NCBI RefSeq assembly: GCF_024346395.1
Contig: NZ_JAGQCW010000004.1
Location: forward strand, 62,001-126,000
DNA: 64,000 bases
Source: Cyanobium sp. AMD-g
GTDB lineage: Bacteria; Cyanobacteriota; Cyanobacteriia; PCC-6307; Cyanobiaceae
Direction: 5' to 3'
The notes under the pieces are model-generated. The model did no database searches, was not told where the DNA came from, and worked only from the letters and a program-made list of their open reading frames with translations. Of this stretch, positions 8,572-31,886 are shown piece after piece; the first letter of the stretch is position 1; each line of letters starts with the position of its first letter. A program made the position numbers and the translations under genes.

Positions 8572-9083
8572 GCCGCGGCCCTCTCTGCCGTCTGGGTGGT
8601 CTGCTGGCCTGCTTCGGCCTGATGCTGCTCATGCTGACCGGCCGTCCAGTGAGGGCCAGCGCCCTCAGCCCGCCGCTCGTCAGCCCGGGCTGGAGCGAAA
8701 CCCCCACGGCCGTGGTGGAACAGCTGAGGGTCAAGGTGCCCGCCGGCGCCCGAAAGGCCTGGCTGCAGGCGGAGCAGGAGACCTGGGGCCCCTGGCTGCG
8801 GCGACAGGAGGGCTTCCTGGGACGAGATCTGCTCTGGGACGCTGAACGGGAGGAAGGCCTCCTGCTGATCCGCTGGAGCAGCCGCCGTCAGTGGCTGGCC
8901 ATCCCCGTCAGCGAGATCGAAGCGGTGCAAGACCAGTTCGAGGCTGCGGCGAGGAGGGCCCTGGCGCTGGATCTCCCGGACCCGGGTGCCGAGACCCCAG
9001 CCAACCCCTTTCCCCTGGTGGACGCCGGCGCCCTCGAATGGGTGGGTCTCACGCCGGCGGCGGCAGCCGTGGAGGTTCGGTGA
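8568..9083 (+). CDS. TIGR03792-like conserved cyanobacterial protein
   Basis: 171 residues: a hydrophobic N-terminal segment ([20 protein letters not shown]) that reads as a signal peptide or anchor, then a domain with [20 protein letters not shown] and [20 protein letters not shown], matching the ferredoxin-like dimeric alpha/beta barrel fold family known as TIGR03792 in cyanobacteria. Function unknown. It overlaps both neighbours by 4 bp (ispF ATGA before, larB GTGA after), so translation of the three is likely coupled. Confidence 0.75.
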
Positions 9084-25480: not shown

Positions 25481-25966
25481 TCAGATCAGCTCCGGGTGGC
25501 GGAGATCTCCTTTGAACGGACCCTCCACGTCGGCGGTGATCCAGCCGCCGTAGAAGCCCCCGGGTTGGGCGGTGACCTGTTCCCCGTCCACCCAGCAGCC
25601 TTCCATCTTGCCGGGATAAAGGGAGAACCAACCCGCCAAGGCCTGGTAGGGGGGCGAGGGATCGGGGTACTGCCACAGGGCCCGTTCCAGGCGGCGACCA
25701 TCGGCGGCCACCACATCGAAATAGCGGGCCACCCCTTTCCACTCGCAGAAGGAACGGCCCGGAGCCGGCACCAGCATGTCCAGGTTCATCACCTCCGGGG
25801 GCAGGTAATAGGTGGGCGGGTGGAAGGTTTCGAGCAGCCTCAGGCTGCAACGGGTATCGGCGAGCACTTTGCCGAAGATCTCGACCCGCACATGCCGTTC
25901 GCATGGCAACAGCAACGGAGGGCGTGGATAGTCAGAGACGCGTTCCATCATCGGGCTCTCCCCCAT
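25481..25966 (-). CDS. DUF427 domain protein
   Basis: 161 residues with the single-domain DUF427 pattern: HVRVEIFGKVLADTR, TYYLPPEVMNLDMLVPAPG, SFCEWKGVARYFDVV and WQYPDPSPPYQALAGWFSLY. The fold is a small beta-rich domain of unknown function. ATG at Met6/7 (MMERV) is an alternative start. Convergent with ribD (21 bp apart) and followed upstream by the Nif11 gene on the same strand. Confidence 0.82.
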   Translation of the reverse strand: MGESPMMERVSDYPRPPLLLPCERHVRVEIFGKVLADTRCSLRLLETFHPPTYYLPPEVMNLDMLVPAPGRSFCEWKGVARYFDVVAADGRRLERALWQYPDPSPPYQALAGWFSLYPGKMEGCWVDGEQVTAQPGGFYGGWITADVEGPFKGDLRHPELI

Positions 25967-25984: not shown

Positions 25985-26239
25985 TCAGCCCGGGATGAAG
26001 TGGCGCAATCGTCTTGCCTCCACCCCGGCACGCTCCTGGAGTTCTCCCTCGCTGAGTCGCGCCTCCTCCCGCTGCTGGGCGGCCAGGATGTCGTCGGCGC
26101 TGAGGGCGAATCCTTCGCCACGCGCCACTTCCAGGAAGGCGGGCAGATCAAGGGGTTGCTGATGATCGTGCAGACGTCGGTTGAGTTCAGGGATCCCTCG
26201 CGCGTGGGCCAGGAAAGCATCGAGGTCAGCGAGGCTCAT
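25985..26239 (-). CDS. Nif11-domain small protein (leader-peptide-like)
   Basis: 84 residues from ATG 26239. The N-terminus MSLADLDAFLAHARGIPELN and middle FLEVARGEGFALSADDILAA match the Nif11 domain, which in picocyanobacteria forms the leaders of many RiPP precursors such as prochlorosins, and also occurs as stand-alone small proteins. The domain continues into RLSEGELQERAG, where such leaders usually end in a double-Gly cleavage site; here no GG follows and only VEARRLRHFIPG remains, with no Cys or Ser/Thr-rich core. A stand-alone Nif11 protein is therefore likelier than a modified-peptide precursor. No lanthionine synthetase or ABC exporter is visible nearby. Confidence 0.75.
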   Translation of the reverse strand: MSLADLDAFLAHARGIPELNRRLHDHQQPLDLPAFLEVARGEGFALSADDILAAQQREEARLSEGELQERAGVEARRLRHFIPG

Positions 26240-26291
26240 GGGCGGGAAGGCTGGAGGGCCGTCGGAGGGGCAGTGCCCTGTCCACCTTGCC

Positions 26292-27590
26292 ATGGAGGAC
26301 GGGGACGAATCTGAGCGACAGGAGGCCAGAGCGTCCTGCTGCTGCCAAGATTCCACGGACCCAACCCTATCCAACTCCGTGGCCAAGACCCTGGTGAAGT
26401 CAGGGATACTCTCCGCTGTCCTGCTGCTGCTGCTGCTGCTGCTGCTGGTCCATGTCTCGGTCGGTCTGCGTATGCAGCGGGTGCCGCACCCGGACGAGGT
26501 CTGGACGATCAACAAGCTGCTGGCCAGCTCCGGCCAGCTCATCTGGGTGACCGTTCTGAAGAACGACAATCATCCCCCCTTGTATTACATGCTGTCCAAG
26601 GGTTGGATCGAACTGACTGGTGCCACGATTCCGCAGCTTCGCTGGTTGTCTTTTCTGTTCACCTCTTGCACACTCTTCTTTGTTGCCTGGGTCTATCGCA
26701 GACAGCCCCGCTTTGAGATGGCGGTTGTCCTGGTGCTGTTCGCCACCAATCCTCTGCTCACCTATTTCTCGGCCACCGTTCGGCCCTATTCCCTGGTGGT
26801 TCTCCTGGCCACCGTGATGACGTGGAGTGCCCTTCAGCTGAGGCGTTGCCAACCCGTCGGGACGGAGCTGCCAGCCCCGTCAATGGGCCGCTTCGCCGCA
26901 TCGGATTCCGACGGCCGGCGGGTCTGGGCTTGGCTCTACTACGGCTCTGCACTCCTCCTGGGGCTCACGCACTATTTCGGCACCCTCTATGTCCTGATGG
27001 CCTGCGGCCTCGACGTTCTCAGCCGCAGGATCGAGCGCACACCGTGGAAGGCAATCATGCTCGTGCTTCTGATCAGCGCCTGGCCGCTGCTGCAGAGCCT
27101 GACCGGCACGCTGGACCAGCAGGCAGAAGCGAACAGCTGGGTGAACGTGTTTCCCCTGATCAGCACGGTCAACAACTTCCTGGCCGGCGTCTTCCCGCTG
27201 CTGATGATCTCCCGCATGCCCCAGCTCGGCTTCGGCGTGGTGCTGGCGCTGGTCCTGCTCCTGATCTCCCTCCGACCCCTGCTGCAGGGCACCGGACGAC
27301 ACCCCCGCGGGAGACGCGCCCGGCTTGTCGCGCTCCTGGGCTCCGATGCTGCCTATCTCGTCGCACTGAACGCTGCCGTTATCGCCGCCGGCTGTGTCGC
27401 CGATGCCCTGATTCCCTTCACCACGCCCTACTACTTTCTGGTCTGCCTTCCGGCGGTGACCATCCTGCTGGGCCGGCTGTTGACCGTCTCCTGGCGGGAC
27501 CGTTTCAGCGGAGGGCTCTGTCTGTTCCTGACGCTGGTCATCGTGGCGCTCCAGATTCAGCTGGCCCACCAGAGGCTCAACACGCCCTGA
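26292..27590 (+). CDS. Polytopic GT-C-like glycosyltransferase
   Basis: 432 residues from ATG 26292, with about ten hydrophobic helices. After the first helix comes MQRVPHPDEVWTINKL, whose acidic pair sits where GT-C (GT39/GT83-type) enzymes keep the catalytic Asp/Glu; NDNHPPLYYMLSKGWIE is the second typical block, and FSATVRPYSLVVLLATV the third. Such enzymes use polyprenyl-phosphate sugars in the membrane. The substrate is unknown. The first helix is encoded partly by a CTG trinucleotide run (26421-26447). Related in architecture to the gene at 30369. Confidence 0.75.
   Translation: MEDGDESERQEARASCCCQDSTDPTLSNSVAKTLVKSGILSAVLLLLLLLLLVHVSVGLRMQRVPHPDEVWTINKLLASSGQLIWVTVLKNDNHPPLYYMLSKGWIELTGATIPQLRWLSFLFTSCTLFFVAWVYRRQPRFEMAVVLVLFATNPLLTYFSATVRPYSLVVLLATVMTWSALQLRRCQPVGTELPAPSMGRFAASDSDGRRVWAWLYYGSALLLGLTHYFGTLYVLMACGLDVLSRRIERTPWKAIMLVLLISAWPLLQSLTGTLDQQAEANSWVNVFPLISTVNNFLAGVFPLLMISRMPQLGFGVVLALVLLLISLRPLLQGTGRHPRGRRARLVALLGSDAAYLVALNAAVIAAGCVADALIPFTTPYYFLVCLPAVTILLGRLLTVSWRDRFSGGLCLFLTLVIVALQIQLAHQRLNTP
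26421..26447 (+). repeat. (CTG)9 trinucleotide repeat inside a coding membrane helix
   Basis: Nine perfect CTG triplets encode a run of leucines in the first membrane segment of the GT-C-like gene. In-frame gain or loss of triplets would only change helix length. Confidence 0.9.
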
Positions 27591-30368: not shown

Positions 30369-31886
30369 TTGATTGACCAGAGGATCCAGCCCGCCATCTG
30401 TGCGGCGCTGGTCCTCTTTTTTCTTGTGGCCGCCAGCCGCGGCCTGGCTGAGAACTACTCCTACTGGTCGGATGAGCTCTGGTCGGTGTCCGCCAGCCGG
30501 GCCGACTGGGGCGTGCTGCTTCGGGACTGGCTGATTCCCGACACCCATCCCCCCCTCTACCAAACCCTGCTCAAGCTCTGGATCGGCAGCGGCGGCAGCG
30601 GCGAAAGGGCCACCCGCAGCCTGAGTCTGCTGATGGCCGGCATCGGCCTGGTGGCCACCGCGCTGTTCGCCTCGGGCAGGGGAGCAGGCCGCCGCCTGGT
30701 GAGCGTGGCCTTTCTGGGCACCAGCCCGGCGTTTCTGTTTTATGCCCAGGAAACCCGCAGCTATGCGACCTCCCTGGCCCTGTCGGCCGTGCTGCTGGGA
30801 GCAGCCATGGAGCTGAGGCAACGGCGCCTGGGTGGCTCCAGCAACGTCCTGCTGGCGCGCTGGGGCGACCCTGCCTTGAGAGGTCTGTTCGTCCTTGCCT
30901 GCCTGCTGCTCTCCCTCACCCACTACGTCTCGCTGCTGTTCGTCCTGGTGGTGCTGGCGGTGGCCTGCGCCGAAGGCCTGGTATGGCGACAACGCCGGCA
31001 GATGCTGCCCCTGCTCCTGGGCGTGTTGAGCTGGCCCATGGTCCATCTGTTGTCGAGTTCGCTCGCGACCAAGTTGGAGCGTCTCGACTGGATCCAGGTG
31101 ACGCCAATCAGCGGCACTCTGAGCGCGTTCCTGAGCGGCACCCTGCCGCTGCTGGCGCCGGGCCGCGCGGGACCGGAAGGGCTGCTGCTGGGCGCCTTGG
31201 GGGTGGCCATGGCCCTGGTGTTCGCCGTCACGGCGGTGCGGCGGCGCCCACAGCCCCTGGCTCCCGTGCTGCCAAACCCTGCCCTGGGGGAAGCCAGGTT
31301 CCTGCTGCTGGCGATCGGTGGCTTCGTGGCCCTGATGCTGCTGATCGACCTGGTCAAGCCCCTGTCCCAGGCCAGGTATGCCATCGTCGTGCTGCCCGCC
31401 CTGGCCTACCTCTGCGGCGATGGCTGGGAGCTGGGCCGGCACATCTCCCGCCCAAGGCGACTCGCCCTGGCCAGCCTGCTGGCGGTCTGGCTGCTGCTGC
31501 AGTGGCAGCTGGGCCAGCAGGAGTTGGCCGAGAAGCGGGCTCCGCTGCAGAACTACAAGTTGATGGCCGCCTTCGTCGAGCGCAGCGGCATTTGCGACGG
31601 GGGCTGCTGGAGTAGCGGCTGGCTGCTGGAGGCCCTCAGTCCCCTTTATGTCCAGCCGGGCCAGCTGCAGCAGGCGCCGGAGGCGTTACGGGACTTTGCC
31701 GCGCCCCTTGAGCGACCATTCCTGGGCTTTCACAACGCTTACAGGGACCTTTCCACCCTTCGTGCCGCCAACCCCGACCTGGCCTGCTGGGAGGCCCCCG
31801 GGGCCTGGCGGTCCGCCCCCTTCGTCCTGCTGCCCCGCACCAGCTCCGTGCAGCCGGCGCGACACGGCCTGCGCCCCTGCCCTTGA
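30369..31886 (+). CDS. Polytopic GT-C-like glycosyltransferase
   Basis: 505 residues from TTG 30369 (no ATG or GTG nearby fits the first helix). Many hydrophobic helices; the first loop carries NYSYWSDELWSVSAS with a DE pair, and PDTHPPLYQTLLKLWIG and FYAQETRSYATSLALSA follow, the same three-block pattern as the gene at 26292. A PMT/ArnT-like enzyme transferring sugar from a lipid-phosphate donor is likely; the acceptor is unknown. A C-terminal soluble tail with four cysteines (ICDGGCW, LACWEAPG region) follows the last helix. Confidence 0.75.
   Translation: MIDQRIQPAICAALVLFFLVAASRGLAENYSYWSDELWSVSASRADWGVLLRDWLIPDTHPPLYQTLLKLWIGSGGSGERATRSLSLLMAGIGLVATALFASGRGAGRRLVSVAFLGTSPAFLFYAQETRSYATSLALSAVLLGAAMELRQRRLGGSSNVLLARWGDPALRGLFVLACLLLSLTHYVSLLFVLVVLAVACAEGLVWRQRRQMLPLLLGVLSWPMVHLLSSSLATKLERLDWIQVTPISGTLSAFLSGTLPLLAPGRAGPEGLLLGALGVAMALVFAVTAVRRRPQPLAPVLPNPALGEARFLLLAIGGFVALMLLIDLVKPLSQARYAIVVLPALAYLCGDGWELGRHISRPRRLALASLLAVWLLLQWQLGQQELAEKRAPLQNYKLMAAFVERSGICDGGCWSSGWLLEALSPLYVQPGQLQQAPEALRDFAAPLERPFLGFHNAYRDLSTLRAANPDLACWEAPGAWRSAPFVLLPRTSSVQPARHGLRPCP

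Follow-up and report, generated by a model that had tools for sequence, protein, structure and literature searches.

The window analysed here, a stretch of 64,000 nucleotides from Cyanobium sp. AMD-g, carries on its minus strand a short gene whose product joins a Nif11 domain to a small C-terminal tail, followed closely by a gene for a DUF427 protein. The features discussed below are as follows.

25985..26239, minus strand: Nif11 mini-protein gene (84 aa, ATG at 26239, stop included), matching TIGR03798 and PF07862
26090..26239, minus strand: Nif11 domain, residues 1-50 (Pfam match), with predicted helices at residues 3-15, 17-24 and 32-42
25988..26029, minus strand: conserved C-terminal tail, residues 71-84 (A-G-V-E-A-R-R-L-R-H-F-I-P-G), in place of a Gly-Gly site and core
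25481..25966, minus strand: DUF427 (PF04248, NTP_transf_9) protein, 161 aa (Pfam 94 bits), starting 18 bases after the Nif11 stop

The product of the 84-aa open reading frame ends in ...GVEARRLRHFIPG. The frame itself extends further upstream, to 194 aa from a TTG, and a start codon is found at the place matching the ATG in 68 relatives, with products of 79-86 aa; in each relative the start was chosen by script as the start codon nearest to that place. Their N-termini read MSL (52), MAL (7), MGL (3), MTL (3) or MSI (3). The first-pass annotation had assigned the protein to the Nif11 leader family, and an HMM search bears this out with scores above both curated cut-offs: 37.4 bits against a cut-off of 32.3 for TIGR03798, the Nif11-like leader (residues 1-72, profile positions 1-67 of 68), and 25.1 bits against a gathering cut-off of 23.8 for Pfam PF07862, Nif11 (residues 1-50). 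A chance or compositional similarity to Nif11 is ruled out by these two curated models together with 66 aligned distinct sequences. As the annotation had also noted, the 84-aa protein lacks the Gly-Gly cleavage site and the Cys/Ser/Thr-rich core of a RiPP precursor: it contains no Gly-Gly and no Cys, and its last Ser/Thr is Ser63. The description of its C-terminus as atypical holds when the protein is compared with RiPP precursors, but not within its own orthologous family, where this C-terminus is the norm.

A protein search of 151 genomes from the same taxonomic family gave matches in 76, of which two (G120 and G140) are other Nif11 paralogues, and a profile search places an orthologue in 74 of the 151. 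These two genomes were left out before counting, as were L005 (the same place as L009) and L076 and L077 (the paralogues in question). From the 74 carriers, 68 orthologues were extracted, yielding 66 distinct sequences; six were not fetched. The copy in G138 is cut short, with an open frame of 53 aa. In a larger draw of 400 family genomes, 183 carry the orthologue, always as a single match at E <= 1e-15, and the carriers span 19 of the 59 genera of the family. Named carriers (at least 44 loci, found with two peptide patterns) comprise strains of Synechococcus, Cyanobium and Aphanothece and one Prochlorococcaceae MAG. Within its own genus the mini-protein is present in 37 of the 42 genomes of the larger draw; a miss here is weak evidence of absence, since four of the five non-carriers are drafts with at least 250 contigs and at most 13 candidates were scored per genome. 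The orthologue was not found in at least four near-complete genomes of more than 2 Mb (G008, G030, G054 and G140), nor in eight family genomes consisting of a single contig of 1.6-1.9 Mb, for which a phylum-wide draw listed no match, which indicates that the mini-protein is dispensable. In one genus (g30) the gene is missing from the near-complete G030 and G140 and present in G072, G099 and G121, with DUF427 kept; the two absences are a probable lineage-specific loss, and the genus could serve as a natural knock-out comparison.

The phylum-wide draw covered 292 genomes, with at most 19 candidates scored in each, and 34 of these matched, 20 from the family and 14 from outside it. All 20 family genomes match the whole profile, whereas none of the 14 outside-family genomes matches past profile position 68. 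Because the outside genomes match the Nif11 part only, the full architecture is a trait of this lineage within the genomes searched. Some Nif11 proteins from outside the family have shared endings of their own: L126, L128 and L129 end similarly in N-P-G...R-R-H-I-x-P-R, L125 and L127 have one common tail, and L131 and L132 have a third. A Nif11 domain with a fixed tail may thus be a recurrent architecture. Among viral contigs, the search run gave seven pattern matches, none of them confirmed as a relative.

Across the 66 distinct sequences, the nine-column alignment window of lowest entropy covers residues 74-82, which spell the tail stretch E-A-R-R-L-R-x-F-I. Invariant in all 66 are M1 (as follows from the choice of start), D7, D50, R57, L67, Q68, R79 and F81, and R76, L78 and I82 are each kept in 64. 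Taken over all 14 columns, the tail shows a modest excess of conservation, with random column sets equally conserved in 578 of 20,000 draws. In 24 disjoint close pairs (>=75% identity), pN/pS is 0.104 in the tail versus 0.204 in the rest of the protein, and pS is 0.38 versus 0.34; looser pairs, some of them distant, give pN/pS values of 0.233 and 0.457, respectively. Since synonymous sites change as freely in the tail as elsewhere and pN/pS is low there, the constraint acts on the peptide and not on the DNA. Net charge is +1 or +2 over the final 12 residues of every one of the 66 orthologues, and -3 to -11 over the remainder. Arg is frequent in the tail, and no Cys, Tyr, Ser or Thr there is conserved among these orthologues.

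An AlphaFold2 model built on the 66-row alignment has helices at residues 3-15, 17-24, 32-42 and 48-79 and a mean pLDDT of 75, with block means of 74-86 over residues 1-50 and of 62, 55 and 51 over residues 61-84, a low-confidence region. The conserved tail is thus predicted, at low confidence, to continue the last helix. As a helix it would be only moderately amphipathic (moment 0.36-0.41, versus up to 0.58 in windows within residues 6-31). Foldseek found no meaningful match to the model in the PDB (one hit, at E 6.8). By sequence, PDB entry 9zn4, a 77-aa "Nif11 domain-containing protein", matches over profile positions 1-69 (E 1.9e-5); its chain stops about where the tail of the mini-protein starts and is therefore uninformative on the tail.

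For comparison, 38 RiPP-type Nif11 paralogues matching the same profile were collected from chosen stretches of three related genomes. Of these, 35 have Gly-Gly near the end of the leader and 37 have Cys behind it; inspected by eye, the tails seem mutually unrelated. By contrast, none of the 66 orthologues has Gly-Gly within the last 25 residues and two have Cys within the last 18, the windows differing slightly between the two sets. At the would-be cleavage position they have A, M, Q or T, followed by G or A, and their last 12 residues contain no Ser, Thr or Cys in 26 sequences, one in 32, and two or three in eight. A tree of the leaders alone is in agreement; with weak support (72/100) for the dividing branch and a bootstrap that had yet to converge, it counts as agreement only. 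All 66 orthologues lie on one side, and the 38 RiPP-type leaders and ten outside sequences lie apart, with two very long-branched sequences from the Cyanobium sp. AMD-g genome falling on the orthologue side. That genome encodes five other Nif11 proteins above the Pfam cut-off (L001, L002, L003, L004 and L006), in which no Gly-Gly followed by a Cys-bearing core was seen by eye; one of them, L003, has a cupin-like extension (Cupin_6, 25.7 bits, slightly under the cut-off of 26.7). The genome therefore seems to possess Nif11 proteins and to lack a typical Nif11 RiPP precursor.

The assembly (3.1 Mb, 13 contigs, 99.98% complete) contains no match to the LANC_like model, which is positive in 10 of the 151 family genomes, and none to YcaO, for which 5 of 14 controls are positive. 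The earlier remark that no modification enzyme is visible within the window thus extends to the whole genome for these two families. The LanM dehydratase domain PF13575 likewise gave no match in the genome, but it gave none in the controls either and is uninformative alone. A survey for C39 exporters, which the first-pass annotation had proposed, gave a single match at E <= 0.001 (E 3e-5; L039, C1:210810-211163), in an ABC transporter-like ORF with a 1012-aa open frame, but its C39-like domain has Ser for the expected Cys, reading E-S-P where 28 C39 domains from related genomes, picked because they carry this motif, have D/E-C. The Cys of the D/E-C motif is the catalytic residue, and judged by its sequence the C39 domain of this genome looks degenerate. 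A LanC-like protein occurs in 7 of the 74 carriers (Fisher p 0.20), and the presence of the mini-protein is accordingly not tied to LanC-like enzymes. Strong C39 matches (E <= 1e-20) are commoner in carriers, with 22 of 74 against 7 of 77 non-carriers (Fisher p 0.002); this excess either counts against a non-RiPP reading or is an effect of genome size. Of the 74 carriers, 49 lack both a LanC-like protein and a strong C39 match.

We compared the surroundings of the gene in 64 genomes. It has SRAP, FtsH or RibD nearby in 31 (the SRAP/FtsH/RibD setting), LeuA or a transport permease in 20 (the LeuA setting), a ferredoxin-like gene or its neighbour in eight, and none of these in five. A DUF427 gene follows downstream on the same strand in 31 of the 64; in 22 of these its start is no more than 400 bases from that of the Nif11 gene. 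This arrangement is found in 26 of the 31 SRAP/FtsH/RibD settings and in 5 of the 20 LeuA settings; DUF427 was not found nearby in the other 15 LeuA settings, in any of the eight ferredoxin settings or in any of the five remaining genomes, and at three loci (L148, L150 and L164) it lies on the opposite strand. DUF427 is the commonest neighbour of the Nif11 gene, not an obligate one. In Cyanobium sp. AMD-g the two genes are possibly co-transcribed. Over the 151 genomes, 68 have both genes, six the Nif11 mini-protein only, nine DUF427 only and 68 neither, and two DUF427 genes are present in 53 of the 68 carriers that have DUF427; because both genes are missing from many small genomes, their co-occurrence is weak evidence of a shared function. 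DUF427 is described as a beta-tent fold domain of unknown function in the part of PMC4287342 covered, and the part of PMC7760959 covered holds nothing on the mini-protein. A link through DUF427 to glutamine-synthetase inactivating factors proved false, as those papers, in the parts covered, concern DUF4278. A Pfam scan of ten neighbour representatives gave no known RiPP-modifying family, and in particular no radical-SAM or similar enzyme; one belongs to signal peptidase family S26, and three have no Pfam match.

The SRAP gene is separated from the Nif11 gene by a membrane-protein-like gene (26181-27590, plus strand) with a run of CTG codons at its start and a weak match to PMT_2 (E 0.006, below the cut-off). 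Its product is related to a protein encoded at 30369-31886 (26% identity, E 3e-24). This gene is probably a recent insertion, as it is found at this place in 3 of the 64 genomes, namely in Cyanobium sp. AMD-g and two near relatives.

On balance we favour the reading that the gene encodes an intact, single-copy, stand-alone Nif11 mini-protein of the Cyanobium/Synechococcus lineage, which is probably not a RiPP precursor and which acts through its tail as a cytoplasmic binding adaptor or small regulator. In its sequence, the Nif11 domain is joined to the fixed basic stretch E-A-R-R-L-R-x-F-I, which stands where a Gly-Gly site and variable core would otherwise be. The protein would remain whole in the cytoplasm, where its acidic Nif11 domain and basic tail may bind a conserved cellular partner, the tail providing the main contact, and it may modulate or tether that partner. 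A first candidate for the partner would be the downstream DUF427 product, with the proviso that the mini-protein also occurs without DUF427.

Of the three origins that the first-pass annotation had offered, a decayed precursor, in which the leader remains after the core was lost, is hardly credible. The missing core and the lack of LANC_like and YcaO enzymes in the genome would fit it, but the gene is kept in 19 of 59 family genera, with a single match in each of 183 of 400 genomes; the 68 translated copies all measure 79-86 aa, none of them shortened; and pN/pS is low throughout and lowest (0.10) in the tail, which holds the most conserved window. As far as sequence allows, conservation and selection refute this option. 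The annotation's precursor of an unmodified short peptide, the last ~12 residues of which a C39-type exporter would cut off and release, we regard as very unlikely. It can draw on the fact that Nif11 leaders of the related-genome paralogues are of the Gly-Gly kind, on an A-G pair lying roughly at the place of their Gly-Gly, and on the excess of strong C39 matches in carriers (22/74 vs 7/77). Weighing more heavily, none of the 66 orthologues has Gly-Gly, the position being A/M/Q/T and then G/A; the only C39 match of the genome itself has Ser for Cys; and 49 of 74 carriers do without both LanC-like proteins and strong C39. The remaining option, a regulator derived from a leader, fares better in its first half: a regulatory role, which we infer, is the favoured one, and for the descent both directions stand, from leader to regulator or the reverse.

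Two further explanations were weighed. PqqA and the mycofactocin precursor are RiPP precursors of the cofactor kind, and the mini-protein might likewise be a conserved RiPP-like precursor, single in each genome, whose core is cut from the C-terminus by an unlinked enzyme. Its single copy and fixed C-terminus are what such precursors would lead one to expect, and its N-terminal part is a genuine leader-family domain. We nevertheless hold this quite improbable, given that no neighbour gene is constant across the 64 genomes, that the ten neighbour representatives (three without a Pfam match) include no known RiPP-modifying family, that the Arg-rich tail lacks a conserved Cys, Tyr, Ser or Thr, and that the predicted helix passes, at low confidence, through the would-be cleavage site. 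A two-gene module of the mini-protein and the DUF427 protein, whose gene begins 18 bases further on, is unlikely, though not to that extent. A downstream same-strand DUF427 gene is seen in 31 of 64 genomes and occurs in two different wider contexts (26/31 SRAP/FtsH/RibD and 5/20 LeuA), and of the 74 carriers, 68 possess DUF427 at some locus; against this, six carriers have none and nine genomes have DUF427 alone, a second DUF427 gene is present in 53 of those 68 carriers, the gene is not nearby in 15/20 LeuA, 8/8 ferredoxin and 5/5 other settings, and it lies on the other strand at the three loci named above.

With a cytoplasmic adaptor or small regulator as the preferred reading, the Nif11 leader fold could have a housekeeping life, in which a single-copy protein docks with its fixed basic tail on a core picocyanobacterial partner and has its docking module in common with the prochlorosin-type leaders. 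We put this forward as a speculation, and a rather doubtful one; if true, it would mean that an intracellular regulator gave rise to a promiscuous RiPP leader, or arose from one. On the practical side, the NCBIfam model names the mini-protein a RiPP precursor, and picocyanobacterial biosynthetic-gene counts resting on that model would include it. Such counts would become cleaner if it were recognised as conserved but not a RiPP precursor, and the mini-protein would offer a simple system for asking what a Nif11 domain does alone.

The papers compared below are cited for the passages of them that were covered, and all statements refer to those passages. Several report on Nif11 proteins of some kind. 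A Nif11 domain-like transcript is raised with iron (PMC9723758), which may concern another Nif11 protein. In a Prochlorococcus island, four of five nif11-domain genes respond to nitrogen stress (PMC2784084); as these adjoin transposases and are paralogues of each other, they are probably not this gene. Nif11-domain proteins are counted among predicted extracellular proteins (PMC11928666), a prediction that would speak for the export of some Nif11 proteins. A MALDI peak at 9067 was assigned to a Synechococcus Nif11 protein (PMC8002600); the calculated masses of 12 orthologues fall within 30 units of it and none is exact, so that nothing follows for the mini-protein. Within the covered passages of the open-licence PMC literature, we found no description of the mini-protein family or of its tail. 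Nif11 proteins as a kind are known, and the stand-alone family with the fixed R-R-L-R-x-F-I tail would be a new variant as far as that literature shows.

Three known systems come closest. The "Group F" Nif11 peptides of marine Synechococcus, whose function is given in that paper as unknown, have a mostly conserved C-terminal -GEYH/N- (PMC10783134) and resemble the mini-protein in that a Nif11 leader is followed by a largely fixed C-terminal stretch. Going by their description, they are set apart by the N-terminus MALDQL and a different tail, and the covered main text of that paper makes no mention of an R-R-L-R-x-F-I tail. Unk10 of the chromatic-acclimation (CA4) island likewise has an N-terminal Nif11 domain and unknown function and is not presented as a RiPP precursor (PMC3877281); compared by description, it differs in its length of 107-118 aa and in being tied to phycobilisome/CA4 gene regions. 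The third system is the Nif11-derived RiPP precursors, the prochlorosins and synechococsins (TIGR03798; Haft et al., 2010, PMC2887384; Arias-Orozco et al., 2023, PMC10783134), which share with the mini-protein a homologous N-terminal Nif11 domain and a leader end of the S-D-x-E-L type. Unlike these precursors, which form paralogous sets, the mini-protein has neither Gly-Gly nor a variable Cys-bearing core, is present in single copy and is not tied to LanC-like enzymes. The two differ most plainly at the C-terminus, which is hypervariable in the Nif11-derived RiPP precursors and is the most conserved stretch of the mini-protein.
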